Source of the DNA: Nitrospira sp.
Lineage (GTDB): Bacteria > Nitrospirota > Nitrospiria > Nitrospirales > Nitrospiraceae
Length of the DNA stretch: 53,344 nt
Assembly: GCA_029881435.1 (NCBI GenBank)
Contig: JAOUMR010000012.1
Span: 1-53,344 of the forward strand
Reading direction: 5' to 3'
In this document: in pieces, positions 5,974 to 53,098 of the stretch
How the letters are laid out: each line of letters starts with the position of its first letter
Numbering within the stretch: the first letter of the stretch is position 1
Program-made: the position numbers and the translations under genes
The notes under the pieces: generated by a model
What the model was told of the DNA's origin: nothing
The model's input: only the letters and a program-made list of their open reading frames with translations
The model's database searches: none

Positions 5974-6900
5974 ATGAGAATTAGCATGAAAGCATTTCTG
6001 AGAAATCTAGTTGCGGAAAGGCAGCCATCGCCATCTTCGGATGTCTCGTCTGCGTCGCCGAGGATAGAGCATGAGGCATCTTCGCTTCCTTTTAGAGGGT
6101 TCGATGTGGATCGCGTCAACTCGGGGTTTGTGGAATTCCTGAGCGATGATGATCTTGCGCGACTTAACGAGATGCTTCCTTGGAAATGCTTTACGGCGGA
6201 TTCCGTAGGCAGGCGATTTGGAAACTCTGCGTGGAAGGGTAAAAGAGATACGCCACAACAAATACCTGATCAGCGAATAGTACAAATGAATACATTGTTC
6301 AATTTAAAGAATAGGTCAGTTCTTGAGGTGGGCTGTTTTGAGGGCATCCATACGATCGGCATTGCTCAATGTGGTGCCAAAGTTTATGCGATCGATTCTC
6401 GGGTTGAAAACGTTGTCAAGACCATCGTGCGGACCTCGATGTTCGGTTACACGCCTCAGGTTTTTGTCTGTAATCTGGAAGAAGACTCTGATGTTGCTAG
6501 GCTGCCGGTGGTGGATTTTGTTCACCATGTGGGAGTTCTTTATCATCTAAAAGATCCAGTGTCGCATCTGTTGAAGCTTGCAAATATCGCCAAGGATGGC
6601 CTGCTTCTTGATACCCATTATGCCTCGAGTGAAATGGTGAATTCCTGCTATGCCGTGAATGGCAAGGAGTACCGATACTTTGGCTATCGAGAGAAAGGTC
6701 GAAATGAGGTGTTCTCTGGCATGTATGACCATGCCAAATGGTTATTACTCGATGATATCAAAGAACTTCTTGGGCAAATCGGATTCTCAGATATCAGGAT
6801 CTCTAAAGACTTTCAGCAAAGAAACGGACCGCGAGTAACGTTGTTTGCGGCTCGTCCTTCGATAATTATAGCGAAAAACAAACTGAATGATGACATTTAG
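5974..6900 (+). CDS. Class I SAM-dependent methyltransferase (CmoB/DUF1698-like)
   Basis: A 308-residue protein with a variable first 100 residues and a methyltransferase domain after it. Motif I is SVLEVGCFEGIHTIGIAQCG, followed by the acidic YAIDSR, and VDFVHHVGVLYHLKDP matches the block found in the CmoB-like/DUF1698 methyltransferases. GAGG lies about 9 bp before the ATG. These proteins often appear in O-antigen and capsule clusters. An O-methyltransferase for a sugar or phosphate terminus is the likely role, but a tRNA-type role is not excluded. It is immediately upstream of the exporter genes, which is a common position for chain-modifying enzymes. Confidence 0.72.
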   Translation: MRISMKAFLRNLVAERQPSPSSDVSSASPRIEHEASSLPFRGFDVDRVNSGFVEFLSDDDLARLNEMLPWKCFTADSVGRRFGNSAWKGKRDTPQQIPDQRIVQMNTLFNLKNRSVLEVGCFEGIHTIGIAQCGAKVYAIDSRVENVVKTIVRTSMFGYTPQVFVCNLEEDSDVARLPVVDFVHHVGVLYHLKDPVSHLLKLANIAKDGLLLDTHYASSEMVNSCYAVNGKEYRYFGYREKGRNEVFSGMYDHAKWLLLDDIKELLGQIGFSDIRISKDFQQRNGPRVTLFAARPSIIIAKNKLNDDI

Positions 6901-6936
6901 GGAAGATCTGCCCTATGTGGCTAAAGCACAGCATTA

Positions 6937-7746
6937 ATGCCTCGAATACCTCGGACGTTGTTCATAGAGAATATTCGCTTAGCCTGGGATCTAGCCCGCC
7001 GCGATCTTAGCGCTAAGTATCGCCGCTCAGCCATGGGGTGGGTGTGGCTAATACTGACGCCACTCTGCCTGCTCGGCATCTATTCCTTGGTGTTTGGCCA
7101 CTTTTTTGGCATTGAATGGAAGATACCTCATCTGGGAGGCGCCGTAGGTGTAGGCTTCGCTCTGCCTTTTTTTGTGGGTTTATCGGTCTATCTTGTTTTG
7201 TCCGACGTTGTTAATTCTTCAACGGTGTTATTTGCGAGTAAGCGAACATATGTAGTTAAGTCTCCGTTTCCGTTGTGGGTCATATGGCTTGCAAATTTAT
7301 TGCGTGCCGCCGTACATGCTGGCGTGGCCCTGTTCCTAGTATTAGCCCTCGCTTTGCTTCAGCAACGGTTGACGTTCTTCGGTTTGTGCTGGATGGCCAT
7401 AGGGCTAGTTTGTTGCGGCGTGTTTGTCAGTGGTCTTTCGCTGTTATTAGCAGCTCTTGGGCCATTTGTTGGAGATGTCTCAGAGGCGTTCCGCCTGCTC
7501 CTGCGGGTTCTGTTCTATGCAACGCCGATCACCTACCCAATGACGTTAGTTCCGCAACCCTACCATGATTGGATGTGGCTTAATCCGCTAACCAGCATGG
7601 TCGAGTTGCTGCGTGAGCCGATTGTGTTTGGCCAGATGTTGCCGTTGTATGTATATGGGATTGTTTTCGCATCTTCGCTGTTGTTGTTTGGTATAGCACT
7701 GTGGGTATTCCAGCAGGTCAAAGGGGTGATATCCGATGTCGTCTAA
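6937..7746 (+). CDS. wzm: O-polysaccharide ABC transporter permease (Wzm)
   Basis: A 269-residue integral membrane protein of the ABC2_membrane family. It has an N-terminal amphipathic stretch (LAWDLARRDLSAKYRRSAMG) and six hydrophobic segments, with GWVWLILTPLCLLGIYSLVF first and a last one just before the C-terminus. FYATPITYPMTLVP is a typical Wzm/TagG segment. It forms the membrane channel that moves lipid-linked polysaccharide to the periplasm, with the ATPase encoded next (11-bp overlap). Its presence together with the absence of wzx/wzy points to ABC-dependent O-chain export. Confidence 0.92.
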   Translation: MPRIPRTLFIENIRLAWDLARRDLSAKYRRSAMGWVWLILTPLCLLGIYSLVFGHFFGIEWKIPHLGGAVGVGFALPFFVGLSVYLVLSDVVNSSTVLFASKRTYVVKSPFPLWVIWLANLLRAAVHAGVALFLVLALALLQQRLTFFGLCWMAIGLVCCGVFVSGLSLLLAALGPFVGDVSEAFRLLLRVLFYATPITYPMTLVPQPYHDWMWLNPLTSMVELLREPIVFGQMLPLYVYGIVFASSLLLFGIALWVFQQVKGVISDVV

Positions 7747-8941
7747 TCTACTCTTGCGAGCAACTGGGCTCAGCAAGGTTTATTCTGGGTCGACACACCC
7801 ACTTGCAACGCTGTGCCACGCGCTGTTTGGTATTGCAGCGGATGCTGCTGACGAGTATCCGGTGCTTGATAACATTACCCTGGACATTCGACGCGGTGAA
7901 ACTGTGGGTATTATGGGGCGCAACGGCGCCGGCAAGACGACGCTTCTTGGCATACTCGGCGACGTCATCCAACCGACCAAAGGTACAGTGGAGCGCTTTG
8001 GACGAATTGCCACACTGCTTGGCCTCACCGCCGGCTTCAATCCTAACTTCACTGGCCGCGAGAATGCCTACCTCTTTTGCAGTATTCAGGGTCTGAGTCG
8101 TCGGCAGACCGACGACCGCATTGCCAACATTGAGACCTTTGCCGACTTAGGGCGCTATTTCGAATTACCCCTGCGAACGTATTCTTCAGGTATGCAGTCG
8201 CGCTTGGCATTTGCCTGTGCAGTTCATGTCTCAGCTGATTTGATTATCATCGACGAAACGTTGGCGGTGGGAGACGCGAATTTTCGCATGAAGTGTTATG
8301 ACCGTATCCGCCAGATGAAGCAGGAGGGGCAAAGCTTCCTGCTCGTGAGCCACAATCAGAATCTACTGGCTAACTTTTGCACCCGTGGCATTGTGCTCGA
8401 GGGTGGGAAGAAAGTGTTTGATGGTATTACTTCAGAAGCGGTAGAGGTCTACAAACGTATCCGAACCGAGGCAATGGGGGATACGGACTTGAAAGGTAAG
8501 GTGCTCAAGTTAGTGTCGGATAAGAGTGCACTAGACCATGATGTCGTGCTAGAGGGATTTTGCCTTACAGAGCGAGATGTCGATGGTGAGTCATTTGGTG
8601 TGGTTCAGGCTCAATTGGCCGTTCGCCGGGGCATGGAGCATATATCGATGAATTTCGGAATATCTAATCACCATGGCATCGTGGTTTGTGCATGGGATGG
8701 TGCACGAGCAGGTATGATAGTTCGTCAATTGAAGGCGGGCGACAGACATAATGTCGAAATGATGTTTAGGAAACGGCTATTGCCTGGTCGCTATTTCGTA
8801 AGTTGCATCATTCACGAGCTTGTCGGTGACGTAACCAAGCCACAAAGCATCTATCAGAACTTCCTTTCTTTCGAGATTAGTGGCAGTGATGTAATGAGCG
8901 GCATTGCGGATCTCGAGATGAGCATCGCAATGCTTGAATAG
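7736..8941 (+). CDS. wzt: O-polysaccharide ABC transporter ATP-binding protein (Wzt)
   Basis: A 401-residue ATPase. The nucleotide-binding domain (about residues 5-240) has Walker A GRNGAGKTTLLG, signature YSSGMQSRLAFAC and Walker B LIIIDETLAVGD with the switch His in LLVSHNQNLL. A further 150 residues form a C-terminal beta-rich domain of the Wzt_C kind. In known Wzt proteins that domain binds the modified non-reducing end of the O-chain and so couples export to chain termination. The flanking methyltransferases are plausible makers of that terminal mark. The start overlaps the end of wzm by 11 bp. Confidence 0.93.
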   Translation: MSSNLLLRATGLSKVYSGSTHPLATLCHALFGIAADAADEYPVLDNITLDIRRGETVGIMGRNGAGKTTLLGILGDVIQPTKGTVERFGRIATLLGLTAGFNPNFTGRENAYLFCSIQGLSRRQTDDRIANIETFADLGRYFELPLRTYSSGMQSRLAFACAVHVSADLIIIDETLAVGDANFRMKCYDRIRQMKQEGQSFLLVSHNQNLLANFCTRGIVLEGGKKVFDGITSEAVEVYKRIRTEAMGDTDLKGKVLKLVSDKSALDHDVVLEGFCLTERDVDGESFGVVQAQLAVRRGMEHISMNFGISNHHGIVVCAWDGARAGMIVRQLKAGDRHNVEMMFRKRLLPGRYFVSCIIHELVGDVTKPQSIYQNFLSFEISGSDVMSGIADLEMSIAMLE

Positions 8942-8998
8942 CAGGTGAAGCATTAAATATGCGACTCTTGGTGTCTTACTTGGAGCAGTGACAAACGA

Positions 8999-9763
8999 AT
9001 GGATTCTTCTGCTAAATTCACAACAAAGGATCAGCCACGAAAATTCAACGCAACCCTGAGATTTTCACACCGCCCGCCGTACGAACTGCTTTTCGCTGAG
9101 CGGGTACCCCTACTACAGGCATTTCAGTGTGCATTGGCTAACTACGTGTATGAACGCGCTCAGGCTGCACAAAGCTTACGGGGTCGGCTGGGAGCTCTGT
9201 TAAACCCTGCGGTGCACCCGTTCCGTGCGGTGGAGTGTGGCGTCTATATGGGGAGCAGTCTGCTCGCTTGTGCGTTGATGGCGCGCGATATGGCAATGCC
9301 TTATCGAATGATTGGCATGGACACGTTTTCAGGTTTACCGCCCCTGTCTGCTAAAGATCAAAGCTTTGCTCCAATGGGAGCGCGCTACCTAAGCACCCAG
9401 GTATTTGCAGACACATCAAAGGAATCTGTACAGGCAGAAATTGTCAGGGCAGGCCTGGGGAGGCACATCGAATTACGACAAGGCTTATTCAGCGAGATTC
9501 TTCCAACACTGCCTGAACAGCGGTATCACTTTGTTAATATCGATTGTGATCTTTATGAACCGCACATAGAGTGCCTCGAATATTTCTACCCGCGTATGGA
9601 AAGCGGCGGAATCATTTTCTTCGATGACTACCATTCAGTTGAATTCCCAATGGCAGGCCAGGCTATCGACTGTTTCATGCGTGATAAACCTGAGCAGCTT
9701 TTGCATTTGCGGTTTGGTGAAGACGGCTCTAATCGTACTAAATGTTACTTGGTTAAGTACTGA
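8999..9763 (+). CDS. TylF/MycF-family O-methyltransferase
   Basis: A 254-residue methyltransferase of the macrocin O-methyltransferase group. It shows AVECGVYMGSSLLACALMAR (SAM loop), MIGMDTFSGLPPLS (the MDTFxGLP signature), and VNIDCDLYEPHIECLEYFYP followed by GGIIFFDDYHS, where the acidic residues bind the catalytic metal in characterised relatives. It probably O-methylates a hydroxyl of a deoxysugar in the O-chain. The stop and the next start share one base (TGATG). Confidence 0.82.
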   Translation: MDSSAKFTTKDQPRKFNATLRFSHRPPYELLFAERVPLLQAFQCALANYVYERAQAAQSLRGRLGALLNPAVHPFRAVECGVYMGSSLLACALMARDMAMPYRMIGMDTFSGLPPLSAKDQSFAPMGARYLSTQVFADTSKESVQAEIVRAGLGRHIELRQGLFSEILPTLPEQRYHFVNIDCDLYEPHIECLEYFYPRMESGGIIFFDDYHSVEFPMAGQAIDCFMRDKPEQLLHLRFGEDGSNRTKCYLVKY

Positions 9764-43051: not shown

Positions 43052-44020
43052 CTGCGCGATCGGGCGGGCACGTTTGAACCAACCGTGGTCAAGCAACGGC
43101 AGCGGCGGCTTGAGGGGTTTAATGACAACGTGCTGGCCCTCTATGCCCATGGGCTCACCACGCGGGGCATTCAAGGCCACCTCGAAGAGGTATATGGGAC
43201 GGAGGTGTCGCCGACACTCATCTCCACCATGACCGATACGGTCTTAGAGGATGTGCGTCTCTGGCAGAGTCGTCCCCTAGAAACGGTCTATCCGATTCTC
43301 TATTTCGATTGTCTCTTTATGAAATCGCGGCATGACGGAGCCGTCACAACCAAAGCGGTCTATGTAGCGCTAGGCGTTACCTGAGCCGGGGAAAAAGAAC
43401 TCGTAGGCCTCTGGGTCAGTGAGACCGAAGGCGCCAAATTCTGGTGAGCGGTCTTTACGGATCTCCGGCAACGAGGGGTCAAAGATTGTTTCGTGGCCTG
43501 TGTCGATGGGCTGACGGGTTTGCCCGACGCGTTGGAGAGGATCTTTCCGCGAACCCAGGTGCGGCTCTGCATGGTGCATAAAGTCCGACAATCCTGGCGG
43601 TCTGTGGTGTGGCGGGAGCGGCGTGCCGTGGCCCGTGATCTGCGAGCCATGTATGGAGCGCCGGCGGTCACGGAAGCTGAAGCGGCCTTGGAGCGCGTTG
43701 CCCTGACGTGGGATGCGCACGATCCCACGATCTGCACGAGTTGGCGGCGGGACTGGACGCGGCTCACGGTCTTCTTTGACGATCCTCCAGCCACTCGCAA
43801 AGCCCTGTACACTACGAATGCCATTGAACCCCTGAATGATTCGTGACGAAAAATGTTAAAAAAGCGCGGGGCGTTTCCCACGGATGAAGCGATCCTCAAA
43901 GTCCTCTATCTGGGCCTGCAGCGCATAGCCAAGAAATGGACCGCCCCGATTCCGGAGTGGAAACAGGCGCTGAATCAATTTGCCATGATCTTAGGAGACC
44001 GTGTGCCTACCAGTGATTAA
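43052..44020 (+). pseudogene. IS256-family transposase, 5'-truncated, three in-frame TGA codons
   Basis: The frame reads continuously from LRDRAGTFEP (43052) to TAA at 44018: GFNDNVLALYAHGLTTRGIQ, LYFDCLFMKSRHDG (first catalytic D), FVACVDGLTGLPDALE (second D), VRLCMVHKVRQS, and ALYTTNAIEPLNDS (catalytic E). TGA interrupts it at 43382, 43445 and 43844 with no frameshift. The first hundred or so codons usual in this family are absent. The right end, around CAGTTACGCCGAAAACTTGACA (44028-44049), looks like the terminal inverted repeat. It abuts the transporter gene with 25 bp between. Confidence 0.88.
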
Positions 44021-44045
44021 CCACAATCAGTTACGCCGAAAACTT
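43052..44045 (+). mobile_element. IS256-type element, left end deleted
   Basis: The transposase remnant plus its probable right terminal repeat (ending about 44045-44049). The left end and the N-terminal coding part are missing. The right end interrupts the IS1634-like transposase gene on the other strand, so this element inserted into the older one and a later deletion or recombination removed the left side. Confidence 0.6.
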
Positions 44046-44631
44046 GACACGCCCAACAACGCCTGTTTGTGCTCGATCAACAAATCCAGACACCGATACA
44101 GCGTGTTCGCCTGCGCGATCCGCACATCCTCATCGAGCAAATCGCCCATCGCGCTGCGATCGAACCATTGACGATGCAAGCGCCACTCGCTCCCAGGATC
44201 GATCAAGCGGTACACCACCAACGTCTTGAGTACATTCAACCAACGCGTACCTTCACGGCTGGGCATCAGCCGCGGTGCCCAGAATCGGTCCAGATCGAGG
44301 TGTTCCCACAGCTCCAGTGCCAACCAACACGCACCCCATTGCCGCGGCCGCACCAGGCGCATGTCTTTCACGCGCACCTGCGCCACTTCGCATGGCAGTG
44401 GCGGAGCGATGCGATCTTCGGGAAAGATCGCCATCTGCGACGTCTTGCCCGCTCCCCCTCAACCACTTCAATCGTCTTGCACCAGGCACGATGCTGTGCG
44501 TCGTTGATCTCCCCCAGGTACAGCACCTGTCGTTGCGCGACTCGACCATCTGGCAAGCGCCGATTCTCCACCACGCTGAAGGTGCGGTGGACCTTACCGT
44601 CTTTCTTACGCGTCTTCGATCGCAAGAACAT
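44040..44631 (-). pseudogene. IS1634-like (IS4 group) transposase, frameshifted and truncated
   Basis: On the minus strand ATG 44631 opens MFLRSKTRKKDGKVHRTFSV, VENRRLPDGRVAQRQVLYLG and EINDAQHRAWCKTIEVVEGE. After a frameshift within about 44440-44460 (a run of five C on the plus strand is the likely site) it goes on MAIFPEDRIAPPLPCEVAQV, RPRQWGACWLALELWEHLDL, SREGTRWLNVLKTLVVYRLI and YRCLDLLIEHKQAL. The remaining C-terminal two thirds, with the catalytic residues, is missing where the IS256-type end begins. Confidence 0.82.
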
Positions 44632-45019
44632 GGAGAAGTATCGCCGTGTACACGCAATACCGCAACAACCAAGGTCGGCACTACAAGCGACTTCGACCAT
44701 CGACTCCTTACTACATCAATCAGTTAGCTCGGCCCTGAGTGCGAAAATCGTAGAATTGGAGGGTGAGTTGGTGAAGTTGGGCTACGGCACGACGGAGCAT
44801 TATGTGTGGGAAGCGCAGCAGATGTTGGAAGGAGCGGAGGGAAAGATTACGCAGGTCTAAGCGTGATCGCGAAGTCGTGGGGTGCGGGATGTCCACATGA
44901 CCGCGGTGGCCGGGTCGTCTTGCAGGGGCGCCAGAGCCAACAGTCTGTTCTTGAGTCACAGCACCTCAACGATGAATTAACCCAGCATCTTTTGACAACT
45001 TCATGTGAGGTATGGGCTC
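44632..45019. other. Stretch with an isolated coding-like fragment
   Basis: A plus-strand fragment (about 44732-44860) reads SALSAKIVELEGELVKLGYG then TTEHYVWEAQQMLEGAEGKI and a stop, with good amphipathic character but no start and no recognised family. It may be the tail of a lost gene. The rest up to the decayed cbiX copy shows nothing. Confidence 0.3.
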
Positions 45020-45300
45020 AGAGAAGCGATGGATCTGTTGGGCCAAGGCATTCGCCACGAGGTGCAGATTGAAAGGCGAGGCGTAACGGAGGTCCACACT
45101 GGGCGGCTGAGGTGGAGATGATCGAGGATTTGAAGAATTGTGATATCGGGATGAAAGCCTTCAAGAGCAAACATCGTCCTCATAAACGTCATGTGAATGG
45201 TGCCCTGTGCGCAGAACTCATTACACGCCATACCGAATACGACGCCACCAGCATCGCCTCCCGGTCGCGGCCACAGACTGCTTCGAAAACCCTTGTAGCA
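45020..45300 (-). pseudogene. Decayed cbiX (sirohydrochlorin chelatase-like) copy
   Basis: Minus-strand frames here align with the intact CbiX protein at 52589-53098: FEAVCGRDREAML against LETVAARLRAQL, NEFCAQGT against NEFCAPT, MRTMFALEGFHPDITILQIL against TTTMFTPGGSHSEVEIPEIL, and VDLRYASPFNLHLVANAL against IELRYAWPFDLDHVANTL. About 11 codons after NEFCA are deleted and at least two frame changes are needed (around 45100 and 45245-45260). The N-terminal half is absent. Confidence 0.8.
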
Positions 45301-45383: not shown

Positions 45384-46688
45384 TCAGCATCCTGTAGATT
45401 GAGGCCGCCAGCCCGGCTTGCAAAAAAGCATGTGTACGGTGCTGATCGAGCGCTCAAGGAAGCCGCCTTCGCAGTAGGAGAGATAGAAGTCCCACAGGCG
45501 GAGGAATTCAGGTTGATACCCCAACGCCTTGATCTCTGGAAGCTTCGTGGCAATGTTCCTCCCCCAGGCTCGCAGCGTCGGAGGGTAGTGCACGCCGATA
45601 TCTTCAAGGTGAATCAGTCCCAGATCGCCGACTTTCGCCGACGCTTGCGTTAAAGCGCTCACGGACGGGATGCAGCTGCCGGGGAAAATGTAGCGCTGGA
45701 TAAAGTCCACGGAGCGCTTTGCCCGTTCGTAGAATTGCTCGTCAATCGTGATGCCCTGGATTAAGGCCAGCCCGCGAGACCTCAACATGCGACTGCAGAT
45801 CTTGAAAAACGTTGAGTAATACTCATGCCCAACGGCCTCAATCATTTCTATGGAGACGAGCTTGTCAAATTGTACACCGAGCTTCGGCAAGTCTCGATAG
45901 TCCGTGAGCGACACCGTGACTTGATCACGTAAGCCGGCATCTCGAACTCGTTGCAGCGCTAGGGCATACTGCCGCCGTGAGATTGTCGTGGTCGTTACCC
46001 GGCAACCATAGTGAGACGCGGCATGGATGGCGAATCCACCCCAACCGGAGCCGATCTCGAGGAGATGGTCGCTGGCGACCAACTGCAGCTTTCGACAGAT
46101 ACGATCGTTCTTCGCGCGTGAGGCTTCCGCCAGCGTCGCGTCCGGTCGCTCAAAGTAAGCGCACGAGTACATCATCGTCTCGTCAAGCATGAGACGAAAG
46201 AACTCGTTGCCCAGATCGTAGTGGGCTGCGACGTTCTTCCTGCTGCCGTCCATCGTATTGCGATGCAGCCAATGGATCGTCTTGAGCAATGGCCTGGTCG
46301 CCAGGGCCAGGCCACCTTCCATACGATCCAAGAGCGTGCGATTCAGGACGAAGATCCTGACTAAGGTCGTCAGATCGTCACAACTCCACAAACCACGACG
46401 GTAGGCGTCACCCAGTCCCACCGTGCCGCCCAGGGTAATCTCTGCATAGACGTGGAGGTCCTGAATCGTCACGGTAGCCCTCAGCTGGCAGCGTGCGGTG
46501 ATTTGGCCGAACTGGAAGTGCTCGTGTCCTTCTACGATTGTCACGGTGCCGAACTCCAGCTTCGACAGGCGAGAGAAAACCGCTCGACGTGCGAGACGGT
46601 AAAACCAGGGTGCGATCTTCGAATGAACTTGTTGCCCGCTCGACCGATCGTCGAGCACAAGACCCGGTGGAATGGTCCGGTTGCTCAT
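45384..46688 (-). CDS. cfa: Cyclopropane-fatty-acyl-phospholipid synthase family methyltransferase
   Basis: A 434-residue enzyme of the CFA synthase family, which uses SAM to methylenate or methylate unsaturated acyl chains in membrane phospholipids. HYDLGNEFFRLMLDETMMYS and CAYFERPDATLAEAS are substrate-site signatures, LLEIGSGWGGFAIHAASHYG is the SAM site, and ISRRQYALALQRV, VSIEMIEAVGHEYY and IQRYIFPGSCIPS follow. Its start overlaps the DUF1365 gene stop by 4 bp (ATGA), showing coupling. The operon context argues for membrane-lipid modification. Confidence 0.92.
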   Translation of the reverse strand: MSNRTIPPGLVLDDRSSGQQVHSKIAPWFYRLARRAVFSRLSKLEFGTVTIVEGHEHFQFGQITARCQLRATVTIQDLHVYAEITLGGTVGLGDAYRRGLWSCDDLTTLVRIFVLNRTLLDRMEGGLALATRPLLKTIHWLHRNTMDGSRKNVAAHYDLGNEFFRLMLDETMMYSCAYFERPDATLAEASRAKNDRICRKLQLVASDHLLEIGSGWGGFAIHAASHYGCRVTTTTISRRQYALALQRVRDAGLRDQVTVSLTDYRDLPKLGVQFDKLVSIEMIEAVGHEYYSTFFKICSRMLRSRGLALIQGITIDEQFYERAKRSVDFIQRYIFPGSCIPSVSALTQASAKVGDLGLIHLEDIGVHYPPTLRAWGRNIATKLPEIKALGYQPEFLRLWDFYLSYCEGGFLERSISTVHMLFCKPGWRPQSTGC

Positions 46689-47476
46689 GATGGTGTCTGA
46701 CGCGTCGCCGCAGGCGACGGCTCCTTTCGGTTATTTGGGTGAGCGTAGAATGGGACTCCTTTGGCCCAGAGTCTCAAGGCCTGCCAATGAATGGCTCCGA
46801 TGATCTTGGCCGTCATCAAGGGATAGTGCGCCAGGACGCGCGCCAAAGACGACCCGGATAGCTCTCGTCGTTCCAGCCGCATCGTGGCGTCGAAAAAAGG
46901 CCGTCCGTCGCGAAGGTTTTCCATATGGATGGCCAATTGCGATGTCGGCTCGGTGAACCGCCAATCGTAGGCCACGTCCATGTCGATAAAGGGCGAGACG
47001 TGGAACACCTTGTCGAGTCGGTAGCGCTTCCGTCTGCCGCTGGCGCGATTGTGTTCGGCTCCCAAGACGTAACAGTGACGCTCTCCCCATGGGGTATTCG
47101 TGATTTCCGCGACGATGGTGTCGACAGAATCATCGGATCGGTCATAGCAAAAATAGAAGCTAACTGGGTTGAAGACGTACCCGAAGTAGCGGAAGTGAGT
47201 CAGGAGACGGATCGGTCCAGCCGGTCGACTGCCCGTTCTCTCCTCCACGAGATGTCGGATCGATTCGTCCAACGTTATGATTGGATCACCAACATGGTCA
47301 ACGCGATTGAACGAAGCGAGGTTGGTGCGATCAACAGACCAGAACCAGCGATCCTCAAAAACGGTCGGGAGTTCCTCCAGGTCCACATACATCATGAACA
47401 ACCGGTAGGTGAACGAGTGCGGAACTGGGCTGAATCGCCGGTGCCGAACGTGTCCAGTATAGATCGCGCTCTTCAT
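46685..47476 (-). CDS. DUF1365-family protein
   Basis: A 263-residue DUF1365 protein: MKSAIYTGHVRHRRFSPVPH at the N-terminus, LLTHFRYFGYVFNPVSFYFC in the middle and HVSPFIDMDVAYDWRF with the conserved CH-x-SPF-like block. DUF1365 has no established reaction, but it is repeatedly found next to CFA synthase-like and flavin amine-oxidase genes and is thought to take part in the same lipid modification. Both ends overlap neighbouring genes by 4 bp, so the three are one translation-coupled unit. Confidence 0.88.
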   Translation of the reverse strand: MKSAIYTGHVRHRRFSPVPHSFTYRLFMMYVDLEELPTVFEDRWFWSVDRTNLASFNRVDHVGDPIITLDESIRHLVEERTGSRPAGPIRLLTHFRYFGYVFNPVSFYFCYDRSDDSVDTIVAEITNTPWGERHCYVLGAEHNRASGRRKRYRLDKVFHVSPFIDMDVAYDWRFTEPTSQLAIHMENLRDGRPFFDATMRLERRELSGSSLARVLAHYPLMTAKIIGAIHWQALRLWAKGVPFYAHPNNRKEPSPAATRQTPS

Positions 47477-48735
47477 GATGAGAGGTCCTTCCCGAGCGGC
47501 TTACAGACGGCCAGAGCACTGTTCACTCCATCCTCATGAAACCCAAAACCCCAGTAAGCACCGCAATAGGAAGTCCGATTGACGCCGTTGATCTCACCGT
47601 GGCGCCTCTGTGCGGCAACGGCTTCCGGTGAGTACACCGGATGATGATAAGTGATGCGACACAGGATCTTAGTTGGATGGATGGCTTGTGTGTGATTGAG
47701 TGTGACACAGAATTCACAGGGCGCGGTCAGGCTCTGTAACTTGTTCATGTGGTAGGTCAGAACCGCACGATCCGGCTGGGCCTCAAGCAGATGGTAATTC
47801 CATGCGGCCCAGGCCAGTTTACGCTTGGGGAGCAACGACGTGTCGGTGTGCAACACGGCTTCATTCTCTTGATAATGGATTGCCCCCAAGACCTCCTTTT
47901 CCGTCGGTGAGGGGTCGGCTAGAATGGTGAGGGCTTGATCGCTATGCGTGGCCATGATCACATGATCGAACCGCAAGGCGCAGTAGTTGCGCCCTTGCAT
48001 CTTCGTGCGGATTTCTGCGTAATCCGGGAATCGTTCTATCGACTCGACCGGGGAATTGAGATAAATGCGGTGGCGGAACGGCGCGATGAGTTTCTCAGCA
48101 TACCGCTGCGAGCCACCCTTGATGACCCGCCAGGTCGGCCGCTCATCGACCGAAAGCATGCCATGGTTTTTGAAAAACTGGACGAGGTACCGGGCCGGAA
48201 ACTTCCACATGTCCTCGTGACTAGCTGACCAAATCGCGGCTCCCATTGGAACCATGTAGTGCTCGATGAACTCCCTTGAGTATCGATGGGTCTCCACATA
48301 GGAGCCGAGCGAAGGACCCGGCTCCGTCAGTGTCAGCAGTTCCAGTGACTCGCGATTGAAGCGCAGGATGTCCCGTATCATCCGGTAGAACGAGGGGCGA
48401 AGCAGGTTTCGCCGCTGGGCGAACAGTGTATTCAGCGACGTCCCATTGTACTCGAGGCCAGTTCGCTCGCATTTCACACCGAAGCTCATGTTGCTCGGTT
48501 GCGATTCCACGCCCAATTTCTTGAGTAGGGCAATGAAGTTCGGGTAGGTACACTCGTTGAACACAATGAATCCGGTATCTATGGCGTAACCGCGGTCTTC
48601 CATCGGGACTTCGACCGTATTGGTATGTCCGCCGATATAATCAGCAGCCTCGAAGACAGTGATCTCATGATCTCGATGCAGGAGATACGCCGCGACCATT
48701 CCCGAAATGCCTGTGCCGACAATCGCGATCTTCAT
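47473..48735 (-). CDS. FAD-dependent amine-oxidase-like oxidoreductase
   Basis: A 420-residue flavoprotein. The N-terminal dinucleotide site is IAIVGTGISGMVAAYLLHRD followed by ITVFEAADYIGGHTNTVEV (GxGxxG...E...GG). DTGFIVFNECTYPNFIALLK and YCGAYWGFGFHEDGVNSALA are typical of the NAD(P)/FAD amine-oxidase-like proteins that accompany DUF1365. It probably oxidises or desaturates a lipid-linked substrate with the neighbouring methyltransferases; the substrate is unknown. Its stop overlaps the DUF1365 start (ATGA). Confidence 0.86.
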   Translation of the reverse strand: MKIAIVGTGISGMVAAYLLHRDHEITVFEAADYIGGHTNTVEVPMEDRGYAIDTGFIVFNECTYPNFIALLKKLGVESQPSNMSFGVKCERTGLEYNGTSLNTLFAQRRNLLRPSFYRMIRDILRFNRESLELLTLTEPGPSLGSYVETHRYSREFIEHYMVPMGAAIWSASHEDMWKFPARYLVQFFKNHGMLSVDERPTWRVIKGGSQRYAEKLIAPFRHRIYLNSPVESIERFPDYAEIRTKMQGRNYCALRFDHVIMATHSDQALTILADPSPTEKEVLGAIHYQENEAVLHTDTSLLPKRKLAWAAWNYHLLEAQPDRAVLTYHMNKLQSLTAPCEFCVTLNHTQAIHPTKILCRITYHHPVYSPEAVAAQRRHGEINGVNRTSYCGAYWGFGFHEDGVNSALAVCKPLGKDLSS

Positions 48736-48899
48736 TCAGTCTTCAGTGCCTCGTTGATCGAGTTCGGACCAAGCCAGATTGCATAAGAGGCCTCCAGGAC
48801 ATCGACGCCCGGTATGATTTCCTTACGCTGGTGGTGAGCGCCAACCCGGTCAGGACGCCCGGAGATGCTGTCACCATATAGCAATCCGACCTGTTCCAT
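48732..48899 (-). CDS. Small ORF in the lipid operon, uncertain
   Basis: A 55-residue reading frame (ATG 48899, MEQVGLLYGDSISGRPDRVG ... GVDVLEASYAIWLGPNSINEAL) lies in the only larger gap of the lipid operon. Its stop overlaps the FAD-protein start as ATGA, as expected for a coupled gene. It has no ribosome site and no recognised family, and could instead be the remains of a larger gene. Confidence 0.28.
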   Translation of the reverse strand: MEQVGLLYGDSISGRPDRVGAHHQRKEIIPGVDVLEASYAIWLGPNSINEALKTE

Positions 48900-48915
48900 G
48901 ACTGGCTGGGGTACA

Positions 48916-49446
48916 CTAGTTCCAGCGTTGGGGCACCTTCCTGACTTTGGAGACATCGTAGCCCTCCTCGGCGATGAGCGTCAGAAACCGCTGGTAGTCC
49001 GGATCAGGAATTTCAGGTGTCCGGGCCATTAGCCACACATAATCGCGCGCGGTTCGTCCGATGACCGTCTGACTGTACGACTCGTCGACAAAGACAATGC
49101 GATAGTCGGCCTTGATCGGCCAGACGAACTGCATACCCCAGACGGCATTCGATTGCGTATCGATAATATAGCCGGTGGGATGATAGGTCTTCCGCTCCCC
49201 CTCAAAGCCGCCCTCACGGAAGCTAAAGGTCGTGGGCACGGTACCATCCTCGGCCAAGCGATAGGACTCCATGGCGTTGTAGGCGTTCGTCTCGATAAAG
49301 GTTGGAATATTGGCGATGACGTACCAGTCCCCCATGAACCGCTCCAAGTCCACGGCCGTCGCAATTCGAATGGGTGGAGGGCTGCTGCAGGCAGCGAGCG
49401 TCAGCAGCACAATGGGCATGAAGAATGACGACCTTACAGATGACAT
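48916..49446 (-). CDS. blc: Lipocalin-family outer-membrane lipoprotein (Blc-like)
   Basis: A 176-residue lipoprotein: signal peptide with lipobox LAAC (residues about 16-19), giving a lipid-modified Cys, then the lipocalin GxW block ERFMGDWYVIANIPTFIETN, RTARDYVWLMARTPEIPDPD and the closing helix. Bacterial lipocalin (Blc) sits in the outer membrane and binds fatty acids or lysophospholipids. In this operon it may carry or store the modified lipid product. GAGG lies upstream of the ATG. Confidence 0.88.
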   Translation of the reverse strand: MSSVRSSFFMPIVLLTLAACSSPPPIRIATAVDLERFMGDWYVIANIPTFIETNAYNAMESYRLAEDGTVPTTFSFREGGFEGERKTYHPTGYIIDTQSNAVWGMQFVWPIKADYRIVFVDESYSQTVIGRTARDYVWLMARTPEIPDPDYQRFLTLIAEEGYDVSKVRKVPQRWN

Positions 49447-49453
49447 GTGTACC

Positions 49454-50125
49454 TCACTGGAGCGTATAGCGAAGGGTATCGCCCTTCTTCGTGGTGGAGT
49501 GGAGGGCGACCCATCGGCCGTTTAAGGTGTACCAGAGATCGATCGTGAACTTGTCCGTTACGATGCGGCGATGTGTGGTTCGAGTCGGGACGCCCTGCAC
49601 GGGGATCGTCTCTTCGCCCACCACAAGAATGGATGCCGGCTGATGTTCTCCGGTCTGCGAATTCAGCAATCGCTCGCCCGTGATCCACTCAGGGTTCCAG
49701 TAGGCAAAGGTCTTGATACAGCCCTCACCGATCCAGTTGCCGGTCTGTGTCTGCACCTGCAACTGCCCGTTCCGAAAGATGCCGTTCACAAAGAAGGACT
49801 CACCGTTATCATCCGTCTCCGCACGAATCTCGCGTAGGCAGGTGCCCTCCCATGTTTCGATGTTGGTATGCCGATAGGTGTAGACCGTGATGTACAGGAA
49901 CTTGACCGTGAAGTGCGCGTCTATCCTGACCTGGGTCCGTTCGTTTTCCGAAGAGACGTCAAAGCGCTGGTGTCCGATTTCATCCATGCCGAGGAACACC
50001 TTGAAGTCATAGGTCTGCGAAGTGGCACTCCACGCCTGTTGGGAGGGGCTTACAAGGCAGACCAGGAATCCGAGGATGGACGCCGCGATGGGAAACCTGC
50101 TGGTCACGGAACACGCAGTGCTCAT
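49454..50125 (-). CDS. DUF6134-like exported protein
   Basis: A 223-residue exported protein with a signal peptide (ASILGFLVCLVSPSQQAWSA). The mature beta-rich part shows TYDFKVFLGMDEIGHQRFDV, VYTYRHTNIETWEGTCLREI, CIKTFAYWNPEWITGERLLN and IDLWYTLNGRWVALHSTTKK, a pattern I associate with DUF6134. It lies 7 bp from the lipocalin gene and could be a periplasmic lipid-binding or transfer component. ATG 50125 has GAGGAAA about 9 bp upstream; longer in-frame extensions are disregarded. Confidence 0.7.
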   Translation of the reverse strand: MSTACSVTSRFPIAASILGFLVCLVSPSQQAWSATSQTYDFKVFLGMDEIGHQRFDVSSENERTQVRIDAHFTVKFLYITVYTYRHTNIETWEGTCLREIRAETDDNGESFFVNGIFRNGQLQVQTQTGNWIGEGCIKTFAYWNPEWITGERLLNSQTGEHQPASILVVGEETIPVQGVPTRTTHRRIVTDKFTIDLWYTLNGRWVALHSTTKKGDTLRYTLQ

Positions 50126-50138
50126 GATGGTTGTTTCC

Positions 50139-50927
50139 TCAAATGGAACCCTCCATCCTCTGTTTCGGAGGGCCGGGAAGGAAGGCATTGGTGTGAGCGA
50201 TATACTCTCGATACGCAGGTCGCCGTTCGATGATAGTCTGCTCCATTAGTGTTACGCCTGAGAACTTCAGGAGCAGGTAGGTGAGGAGCAGGGGCCCGGC
50301 CATCGTCCACCAGGCTCCAGTCGGTACCGCAAAAAGGTAGAAGCTCCACCAGATCAAGCACTCACCGAAGTAATTGGGATGCCGTGTATAGTGCCAGAGT
50401 CCGCGGTCCATCACCTTGCCGTGGTTGTCCGGGTCGGCCTTAAACTGTGACAACTGCCAATCTCCGATGCCTTCGAAGATCATGCCGACGGTCCATACCG
50501 TCACCGCGAGTACATCGAATGCCCCCCCATCGATCGGAATGGTGAGAGCCGGCCACAGGGGCATGGAGATAATCCACGCCAGTCCCGCCTGAAACCAGAA
50601 GATGAGGCCAAGACTCTTCAGTGCAAAATGCGGTTCGTATTTCTGGCGGATGTCTCGATAACGCCGGTCCTCAGGCTCACCCCAGTTGCGATGGATGATA
50701 TGACCTGAGAGACGCAGGCCCCATAGCACAACCAGCGTCAGGATGAGTGTCGTCCGTCCTGTATAGGGCTTCGCACCGGTGGCGTACACGGTCGCGGCGG
50801 CGAGGAGCATAAAGGCCCACACACCGTCTACAATGCTCACATCGCGCTTGAGGACGCTGACGACCCAAGTCAGCGTTGCCAGACCCAAGGTTGAAACCAG
50901 TCCCAAGAGATAGAGCGAGAGACTCAT
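50139..50927 (-). CDS. DUF1295/steroid-5-alpha-reductase-like membrane protein
   Basis: A 262-residue membrane protein with several hydrophobic helices. The C-terminal block DRGLWHYTRHPNYFGECLIW (RHPNYxGE) and VTLMEQTIIERRPAYREYIA mark the DUF1295/Erg4-ICMT fold, used by NADPH-dependent double-bond reductases and isoprenylcysteine methyltransferases. In this operon a lipid-chain reductase role is plausible. It overlaps the DUF2878 gene by 4 bp. Confidence 0.88.
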   Translation of the reverse strand: MSLSLYLLGLVSTLGLATLTWVVSVLKRDVSIVDGVWAFMLLAAATVYATGAKPYTGRTTLILTLVVLWGLRLSGHIIHRNWGEPEDRRYRDIRQKYEPHFALKSLGLIFWFQAGLAWIISMPLWPALTIPIDGGAFDVLAVTVWTVGMIFEGIGDWQLSQFKADPDNHGKVMDRGLWHYTRHPNYFGECLIWWSFYLFAVPTGAWWTMAGPLLLTYLLLKFSGVTLMEQTIIERRPAYREYIAHTNAFLPGPPKQRMEGSI

Positions 50928-51475
50928 GACGTTTGCTTCTCCAGTAGGCCAGCATAGCCGTCAAAATGCGAAGACAAGGCCAGCAGCAGCGGTGTCAGCA
51001 CCGCCCAGCCGATGGCCAAAGCCAACAACCCTGCGGGCATATTGCCGAATTCCAGCGCCCCGAGGCGGAGGCCGCCGTAGTAGGCGGCAGGGCCCCCGAC
51101 GGCTCCAAAAACAATCGCGAGAACCCAGCGCCCTCTCATCCAACGCAATGAGATATTCAAGAGGGTTGCGAAGAGCCCCCACAACGCCACGATCCAATAC
51201 GGGGCAACGTTCGGGAACACGATTCCCGAGGAATACTGAAGCCAGCCCTGCCAGACCAACAGGCTATCGAAGACGAGTCCTAAGCCGAGCGAGAGGAGCA
51301 CCAGTTCGAGCTCCGCTGTTGGCATGGGAGCGCGGAGCACGTGCGTGACCACCACCGCCGTTGTCACAAGGATGCCGAGCCAGGGCTGATGCGCCGCGGC
51401 GCTCAACACACACGCAAACCAGCCGATCTGAAACAGCACAACGTTGCTGACAATCATCGTGGTGCTCATCTTCAT
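50924..51475 (-). CDS. DUF2878-family membrane protein
   Basis: A 183-residue integral membrane protein with about five hydrophobic helices (IVSNVVLFQIGWFACVLSAA, VLAIVFGAVGGPAAYYGGLR, GLLALAIGWAVLTPLLLALS). DUF2878 has no assigned function; it commonly accompanies DUF1295 and CFA-type methyltransferase genes. ATG 51475 is chosen because it shares one base with the preceding CFA-like gene stop (TGATG), indicating coupling. Confidence 0.83.
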   Translation of the reverse strand: MKMSTTMIVSNVVLFQIGWFACVLSAAAHQPWLGILVTTAVVVTHVLRAPMPTAELELVLLSLGLGLVFDSLLVWQGWLQYSSGIVFPNVAPYWIVALWGLFATLLNISLRWMRGRWVLAIVFGAVGGPAAYYGGLRLGALEFGNMPAGLLALAIGWAVLTPLLLALSSHFDGYAGLLEKQTS

Positions 51476-52536
51476 CAGGCACTCGCCCTCGATTTGTCGA
51501 AGAGATAGTGACTGACCCCCCACTGTCGGCCCTCTTCATAGCCGAACAGTTCAGCACAGGCCATGAAGAACAGTCGCCACCGCCCCCACCAGATGCGCGC
51601 GCGCGCCTTGCCGTAGACGCGTTCGATCACGGGCCACAGTGATTCGCGGGCGGTATCCATATTGCTCAGCCAGGCGTTGGCTGTCTTTTCATAGTGCGTG
51701 CCGTCCCACCGCCAGCGGTCCACGCAGGCAAGATGGTCCTGGCAGGCCAGCGGAAGGCCATCGCTGGGCATCATCCCGCCCGTGAAAAACTGCCGACTCA
51801 TCCAGTCGGCGGGTCCCCGGTCTTCGAACAGGTACGACGTAGCGCGATGCACGAACACGTGCATGAAGAACTGGCCGCCCGGTTTCAGCCATCGGCGGAC
51901 GCGAGCAAAGAGATCAGGCCAGTTACGCATGTGTTCGAACATTTCCACCGACACCACCCGATCGAATTGCCCGGAGTCGATCTCGAACGTGTTCATATCG
52001 CAGGTCATCACCCGAACCTGGTTCTGTAGGCCACGTTTTCTGGCCTGGGCCTCAATGTAAGCCCGCTGCGAGCAAGAATTGGAGACCGCTGTGATGCGGC
52101 TGTCGGGGTAGTGCTCAGCCATCCACAGCGTGAGGGACCCCCAGCCGCATCCGAGTTCCAAAATCGTTTGCCCATTTATCAGGCCTGCATGGAGGCAGGA
52201 TTCACGTAAACCGGCGGCTTCTGCTTGGCCTAGGGTTGTCGCGTTGGCGGGCCAGAAGGCGCTGCTGTATTTGAGGTGGGGCCCGAGGACCTGCCGGAAG
52301 AACTCAACCGGAACCTCATAGTGCTGATCATTGGCTTTCTCCGGTACCACTGCGATGGGCGCACGGCGCATCTGGTCGATAAATTGCGTTTCCTGCAGTG
52401 CTGCTGTTCGAGCGTCGCCCGACCGGATCTCCTGGAGACGCTGCGTGAGCAACTGCCGAATCCCCCATCGGAGCACCACGTCTGGGAACAGCCCCTGTTC
52501 GGCCAAGTTCAATGCAAGACGAGTGAGATGTTGCAC
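51475..52536 (-). CDS. CFA synthase-like SAM methyltransferase, second copy in the operon
   Basis: A 353-residue methyltransferase of the CFA-like family, distinct from the one at 45384-46688. HYEVPVEFFRQVLGPHLKYS, SSAFWPANATTLGQAEAAGL and ILELGCGWGSLTLWMAEHYP (SAM site) are visible, then VVSVEMFEHMRNWPDLFARV and FFMHVFVHRATSYLFEDRGP. GTG 52536 is preferred because GGAGG lies 8 bp upstream; a TTG at 52551 is in frame. In the operon it probably methylates the same lipid class, or performs the carbon-transfer step to the FAD enzyme's substrate. Confidence 0.88.
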   Translation of the reverse strand: MQHLTRLALNLAEQGLFPDVVLRWGIRQLLTQRLQEIRSGDARTAALQETQFIDQMRRAPIAVVPEKANDQHYEVPVEFFRQVLGPHLKYSSAFWPANATTLGQAEAAGLRESCLHAGLINGQTILELGCGWGSLTLWMAEHYPDSRITAVSNSCSQRAYIEAQARKRGLQNQVRVMTCDMNTFEIDSGQFDRVVSVEMFEHMRNWPDLFARVRRWLKPGGQFFMHVFVHRATSYLFEDRGPADWMSRQFFTGGMMPSDGLPLACQDHLACVDRWRWDGTHYEKTANAWLSNMDTARESLWPVIERVYGKARARIWWGRWRLFFMACAELFGYEEGRQWGVSHYLFDKSRASA

Positions 52537-52588
52537 GGGTTTAGCCTCCAAACAAACGTACGCGTATGGATACTGCCTTACGCCATCA

Positions 52589-53098
52589 TCATGAAAAACG
52601 CTTCACCTGTTCTGCCAATGTGTTGGCGACGTGATCCAAGTCAAATGGCCACGCATAACGAAGCTCAATGCTGGGATACTGTGGCCGTAATTGATCGAGA
52701 ATTTCCGGAATCTCTACTTCCGAATGTGAACCGCCTGGTGTGAACATCGTGGTCGTCACGGTAATATGAGTCGCTCCCTGCTGGATCAACGATTCGACCG
52801 ATTCCTCCAACGTTGGTGCACAAAACTCATTGTAGGCCACGGCAAAGAGCGCGCCGTCGAGTTGAGCTCGCAGGCGTGCCGCGACGGTTTCGAGACCTGC
52901 TTGATAGGGGTCTGTCTCCGCGGTTCTCGGCCACTGGCGAACCTTGGTATCCAGCTCCAGTTCTTCTGCAGAAGGTGGAAGCTTCGCGGCACGCCGCTGG
53001 GCTTCCAACCGTTTCAGTTTCGTGACTAATTCCTGAGGGCACCCCTTGGGAATGCCACCGTGACCGACCAGAATGACTCCGTGTTGTTGCGTCGCCAT
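52589..53098 (-). CDS. cbiX: Sirohydrochlorin ferrochelatase/cobaltochelatase-like protein (CbiX)
   Basis: A 169-residue CbiX-family protein. GVILVGHGGIPKGCPQEL carries the conserved active-site HG, AVAYNEFCAPTLEESVESLI the second block, and VTTTMFTPGGSHSEVEIPEI the third (the C-terminal His). Such chelatases insert iron or cobalt into sirohydrochlorin for siroheme or B12. A charged insert of about 40 residues (KLKRLEAQRRAAKLPPSAEE) follows the first block. AGGAGG lies upstream of the ATG. It lies 37 bp upstream of the CFA-like gene. Confidence 0.88.
   Translation of the reverse strand: MATQQHGVILVGHGGIPKGCPQELVTKLKRLEAQRRAAKLPPSAEELELDTKVRQWPRTAETDPYQAGLETVAARLRAQLDGALFAVAYNEFCAPTLEESVESLIQQGATHITVTTTMFTPGGSHSEVEIPEILDQLRPQYPSIELRYAWPFDLDHVANTLAEQVKRFS

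Follow-up and report, generated by a model that had tools for sequence, protein, structure and literature searches.

Furan fatty acids are made by a small set of described proteins: UfaM, UfaD and UfaO are sufficient for formation of the 9M5-furan fatty acid, the furan oxygen derives from O2, and a second methyl is added by the Rhodopseudomonas palustris protein FufM (PMC7380195). In R. palustris the adjacent genes RPA2571-2570-2569 encode UfaD, UfaO and UfaM in that order and FufM is RPA0924, and the Rhodobacter sphaeroides genes of the UfaM/UfaD/UfaO pathway are RSP2144, RSP1091 and RSP1090 (PMC7380195). A nine-gene cluster of Stenotrophomonas maltophilia, smlt2375-smlt2367, was described in 2025 with no mention of furan lipids (PMC11832516). 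Here we analyze an eight-gene operon at 45384-52551, on the minus strand of a contig from Nitrospira sp. (GenBank assembly GCA_029881435.1, contig JAOUMR010000012.1; its 53,344 nucleotides are referred to below as the window). We put at about 0.66 the probability that this operon is a horizontally acquired light/oxidative-stress cassette for (di)methyl furan fatty acids on membrane phospholipids.

All eight open reading frames are present and match the families named in the original prediction for this DNA (in Pfam terms CMAS twice, DUF2878, DUF1295, DUF6134, Lipocalin_2, Amino_oxidase and DUF1365). In the order of transcription they are:

51475..52551, minus strand: MT2, an S-adenosylmethionine (SAM)-dependent methyltransferase of the coclaurine N-methyltransferase (CNMT)-like branch, with a TTG start (PF02353, 3e-42)
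50924..51475, minus strand: DUF2878 inner-membrane protein (PF11086, 1.5e-41)
50139..50927, minus strand: DUF1295 membrane protein (PF06966, 5.1e-69; Steroid_dh, 5.7e-8)
49454..50125, minus strand: DUF6134 exported all-beta protein (PF19630, 1.8e-39)
48916..49446, minus strand: Blc-type lipocalin lipoprotein (PF08212, 1.3e-38)
47473..48735, minus strand: UfaD-like oxidoreductase binding flavin adenine dinucleotide (FAD), amine-oxidase type (PF01593, 2.4e-27)
46685..47476, minus strand: UfaO-like DUF1365 protein (PF07103, 4.6e-89)
45384..46688, minus strand: UfaM-like methyltransferase of the cyclopropane fatty acid (CFA) synthase family (PF02353, 5.4e-82)

The original prediction spoke of at least four stop/start overlaps and small gaps. 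The MT2 stop and the DUF2878 ATG share one base (TGATG, 51477-51473, read in the sequence), and there are 4-base overlaps at three junctions (DUF2878/DUF1295, UfaD/DUF1365 and DUF1365/CFA). DUF1295 and DUF6134 are separated by 13 bases, assuming that DUF6134 starts at M22 (50125), and DUF6134 and the lipocalin by 7 bases. The description is right; one gap is larger, 180 bases long, and lies between the lipocalin and UfaD. Predicted sigma-70 promoters and terminators in the operon region do not exceed the level in shuffled sequence.

A single profile search of genome contigs with an alignment of MT2 yielded 80 loci; since the loci were selected through MT2, the fractions given here apply to MT2-bearing loci only. 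The eight-gene grouping is not a product of chance, because 36 of these 80 independently found loci, from Nitrospirota, Gammaproteobacteria and Betaproteobacteria, have the complete set of eight on one strand and in identical order. Co-occurrence in other phyla, which had been suggested as a check, is thereby found, and the idea that the eight genes act as one lipid-modifying unit is supported. In 22 of the 36 full loci an extra acyl-CoA desaturase gene sits between the lipocalin and UfaD, i.e., at the site of the 180-base gap in the window; many proteobacterial copies have it, it is absent in the Nitrospira copies, and no desaturase remnant was found in that gap. Where at least 7.3 kilobases (kb) are available downstream of MT2 (57 loci), UfaD, DUF1365 and CFA occur together in 49 and all eight genes in 33. 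The sets in Planctomycetota are partial or rearranged, and the arrangement of the modules varies from clade to clade (L079, L080). Plasmids of Rhizobiaceae, Burkholderia, Cupriavidus and Acinetobacter carry looser versions of the cluster, several of them also with sigma/anti-sigma pairs, photolyase or DUF2177. Among ten loci with MT2 alone or with reduced clusters, DUF1365 is encoded in the genome for eight. In Chromatiaceae and one gammaproteobacterium (L076, L093, L103, L106, L114), MT2 occurs without the other genes nearby, and DUF1365 lies elsewhere in the genome.

By family membership and gene order, the FAD oxidase, the DUF1365 protein and the CFA-like protein appear to correspond to UfaD, UfaO and UfaM. 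Their adjacent genes, of amine-oxidase-type FAD, DUF1365 and CFA type, form a D-O-M triplet in the R. palustris order, and the UfaD-like protein and its FAD counterpart in furan-type clusters on plasmids are 39-45% identical. The proposed link to the Ufa furan system is supported, the proposed likeness to the mycobacterial Bfa system is not. The BfaA flavoprotein is of the FAD_binding_4 type; the flavoprotein here is an Amino_oxidase (PF01593 / NAD_binding_8) and UfaD-like, so the BfaA/BfaB 10-methyl pathway is a poor match. In a motif survey, nearly all of 63 rows of CFA-like proteins linked to the triplet carry SIEMIEAVG and a Gln (LLQAITI). When the CFA-like protein of the window is aligned to the structures 6bqc, 7qos and 5z9o, this Gln stands where the E. 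coli (6bqc) and Lactobacillus (5z9o) CFA synthases have a His, which we take to be the bicarbonate-site His266 of the E. coli enzyme; at this residue the bicarbonate site of E. coli CFA is not conserved in the window protein. Gln together with MIEAVG would seem to be a consistent difference from cyclopropane synthases, as represented by the E. coli and Lactobacillus enzymes.

Pfam places the second METHYLTRANSFERASE (MT2) and the CFA-like protein both in CMAS, above cut-off, and in this sense the claim of two CFA-like methyltransferases stands. It does not describe MT2 well: the MT2 profile matches CNMT (6gkv) over its full length at 6.5e-99 and E. coli CFA (6bqc) at 3.6e-39, and the MT2 sequence alone matches 6gkv at 5.5e-62. 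These matches place MT2 in the CNMT-like branch and not among CFA synthases proper. LIME1 is itself a coclaurine-N-methyltransferase-like protein. Because MT2 is CNMT-like and FufM has LIME1 as its best plant match, with 37.9% identity (PMC10940516), MT2 is, by likeness, a plausible candidate for a furan methylase of the FufM type.

We propose the following pathway. The UfaM-like protein (45384-46688) would methylate a cis-monounsaturated acyl chain, the UfaD-like FAD protein would desaturate the methylated chain to a methyl-diene, DUF1365 would insert oxygen from O2 and close the furan ring, and MT2 would place a second methyl on the ring. The original prediction was of a pathway that makes, reduces and carries a modified lipid whose product is not described. 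The making step fits the Ufa core, whose chemistry has a described product in the 9M5-furan fatty acid, so that the claim of an undescribed product holds only in part; reducing and carrying are conjectural for DUF1295, DUF2878, the lipocalin and DUF6134, and four or five of the proteins are still without tested function. Family membership, gene order, conservation, the regulator and photolyase context and the folds are direct observations; from the characterized homologs we infer the same Ufa/FufM chemistry in the window organism, and the roles of DUF1295, DUF2878, DUF6134, the lipocalin and CbiX (see below) are predictions. A mono- or dimethyl furan phospholipid would be a candidate product for a stress cluster that is widespread and that recent studies did not explain, and the conserved gene order ties at least four uncharacterized families (DUF1295, DUF2878, DUF6134 and the Blc-type lipocalin) to furan lipids.

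The DUF1295 profile has a bacterial steroid 5-alpha-reductase (7c83, E 7e-5) as its top match in the PDB, with SRD5A2 third. A VIA search with the predicted structure (predicted local distance difference test, pLDDT, 89.5) finds the sterol reductase 4quv and 7c83 at Z 14.1-14.2 and ICMT at Z 11.8, compared with Z below 6.5 for unrelated folds. Two residues, D156 and N185, never vary and line up with D164 and N193 of SRD5A2, presumably NADPH-site residues; the Glu of an NYFGE motif is frequent, though not invariant. By its fold and these residues DUF1295 is a membrane protein of the steroid 5-alpha-reductase/sterol-reductase superfamily, in agreement with the earlier description of it as reductase-like; its probable activity is the reduction of a conjugated C=C or an enone in furan lipids.

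The longest reading frame of DUF6134 starts at 50188, but M22 at 50125 is the likelier start and gives a protein with a signal peptide. Its model is all-beta (pLDDT 87.3). The nearest fold is DUF1849/6ntr (Z 14.8), and the LolA family lies farther away at about Z 9, a similarity of fold only; no sequence match to DUF6134 was found in the PDB up to E = 1. The fold is probably LolA/EipB-like beta, and a lipid-carrier role is predicted. The lipocalin has the lipobox LAAC with Ser at +2, as a Blc-type lipoprotein, and matches plant temperature-induced lipocalin and E. coli Blc in the PDB. Both proteins agree with the carrier-like exported proteins that had been predicted, and they probably bind or carry modified or oxidized lipid in the periplasm.

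Known steroid-5-alpha-reductase-type relatives of DUF1295 reduce enones with NADPH. One could imagine a renewable membrane antioxidant, in which the furan traps singlet oxygen to give an enedione, DUF1295 reduces its C=C to a 1,4-diketone that returns to the furan (Paal-Knorr), and the lipocalin and DUF6134 handle oxidized lipids in the periplasm. We regard this cycle as a long shot; if DUF1295 does reduce furan oxidation products, membranes would gain a recyclable scavenger of singlet oxygen.

Two further features border the operon:

52589..53098, minus strand: CbiX-family tetrapyrrole chelatase-like gene, directly upstream of MT2 (PF01903, 4.8e-13)
45020..45297, minus strand: remains of another CbiX gene, decayed and frame-shifted (tblastn with the intact CbiX, E 2.4e-13)

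The operon is thus flanked by two CbiX copies, an intact one upstream and a dead one directly downstream, and farther downstream, at 43085-44700, there are reading frames resembling transposase gene fragments. The intact CbiX gene is a ninth gene, ending 37 bases upstream of MT2; its position is kept in the Nitrospira relatives, where it is the first gene of the unit. CbiX may lower the level of free photosensitizing tetrapyrroles. Ferrochelatase genes are found in a comparable Ensifer locus, and the Shewanella RpoE2 regulon includes a ferrochelatase gene (PMC4336711).

The surroundings of the operon in other genomes point to light. The motif Wx9EH, which we assume to be the signature of CarH/LitR B12 photoreceptors, is present in 22 of the 23 MerR regulators found upstream of operons. 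Photolyase and RudS are neighbors of the operon in the Nitrospira relatives, where they precede CbiX. The window genome has a CarH-like B12-binding MerR with Wx9EH on another contig (C100, 4668-5591), with a divergent katG about 2.7 kb away. A blastn comparison of the DNA upstream of CbiX with relatives gave no match. In Pseudomonas, blue light induces ufaM about 25-33-fold under LitR control (PMC9758184). Light control of the window operon is likely, judging from this context. Also in favor of a light/oxidative-stress cassette, singlet oxygen induces CFA2, DUF1365 and DUF1295 genes in Chlamydomonas, and a DUF2177 gene is co-induced with the latter two (PMC4067076). The rhizobial versions of the cluster (L029, L032) include DUF2177.

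The Nitrospira copies of UfaD form one fully supported clade among Proteobacteria rows in a tree with a midpoint root only, and UfaD with DUF1365 occurs in 7 of 34 congeners besides the window genome, i.e., in 8 of 35 Nitrospira genomes. Because the clade sits within proteobacterial rows and only 8 of 35 genomes carry UfaD, horizontal acquisition is suggested, most simply by one transfer from a proteobacterial donor to Nitrospira. Furan-lipid genes would thereby be extended to nitrifying Nitrospira, for which the literature found describes no furan acids and no response to light. Loci L019-L026, also from Nitrospira and mostly operon-free, carry a different CFA-type gene with the motif MFEHVG; several such genes adjoin an FNR-type FAD/NAD (flavin) reductase and a protoporphyrinogen-oxidase-like gene.

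A number of points weigh against a furan cassette under light or oxidative-stress control. UfaM, UfaD and UfaO alone suffice for the furan, so that action of the other genes on furan lipids is unproven. The window genome has its photolyase and RudS (TudS-DUF1722) genes together at 6687-9082 of a different contig, C49, and shows no regulator linked to the operon. No TIGR02451 match to the ChrR anti-sigma factor is found in this genome (99.85% complete), and RpoE-ChrR control of the operon is rejected there. The nine homologous genes of Stenotrophomonas had effects on tolerance to superoxide and on susceptibility to ceftazidime; their controlling system, rpoEc-chrR-chrA, had hardly any effect on tolerance to singlet oxygen (PMC11832516). 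Finally, 11-methyl-16:0 (11-methylhexadecanoic acid) is a known Nitrospira lipid (PMC5516240), and a branched-chain product must therefore be excluded.

Such a product would arise if UfaM-like methylation were followed by reduction, by DUF1295 or the FAD protein, to saturated 11-methyl acids, with furan minor or absent. The methyl position of the known lipid is that of the UfaM product, and DUF1295 is of reductase type. However, no more than about 8 of 35 Nitrospira genomes hold the eight-gene set, a separate CFA-type gene is found in many of the rest, frequently next to a flavin reductase, and DUF1365, which forms the furan in homologs, is kept with the core yet would be idle. We consider this explanation unlikely, and the MFEHVG-type gene a better candidate than the operon for 11-methylhexadecanoic acid.

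Alternatively, furan lipids may be made while MT2, DUF2878 and DUF1295 form a separate module, co-regulated by light stress, that acts on another membrane substrate (e.g., quinone or isoprenoid). The five loci in which MT2 stands apart from UfaD and UfaO, the differing module order of L079 and L080 and the many substrates of CNMT relatives fit such a module, which nonetheless seems quite improbable: all five genomes with an isolated MT2 encode DUF1365 elsewhere, and FufM, probably of the same branch as MT2, acts on the furan ring. That the operon makes cyclopropane fatty acids, with stress proteins as accessories, is scarcely credible, for although both methyltransferases pass the CMAS cut-off, the CFA-like protein has Gln for the catalytic-site His and MIEAVG for MFEHVG, MT2 is CNMT-like, and neither UfaD nor DUF1365 is known to take part in cyclopropane synthesis.

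The operon can finally be set against the described systems. Like the UfaM/D/O and FufM pathway, the window has a D-O-M triplet and one more SAM methyltransferase that is plausibly FufM-like; unlike it, the second methylase shares the operon, DUF2878, DUF1295, DUF6134, lipocalin and CbiX are added, and the genome has no ChrR. The Stenotrophomonas cluster is closely alike and has two CFA-annotated enzymes, an FAD oxidoreductase, a lipocalin and hypothetical proteins (one cytosolic, two inner-membrane and one periplasmic), but it differs in having a desaturase, another gene order and sigma-E/ChrR control (PMC11832516). The LitR/PplR phrB-ufaM region of Pseudomonas (PMC9758184) and SO_3374-3386 of Shewanella (PMC4336711) combine photolyase, FAD oxidoreductase and ufaM/cfa in a light/oxidative-stress regulon, whereas the photolyase of the window genome sits on another contig. 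Overall, the operon is real, conserved and mostly explained as an extended form of the known furan pathway.

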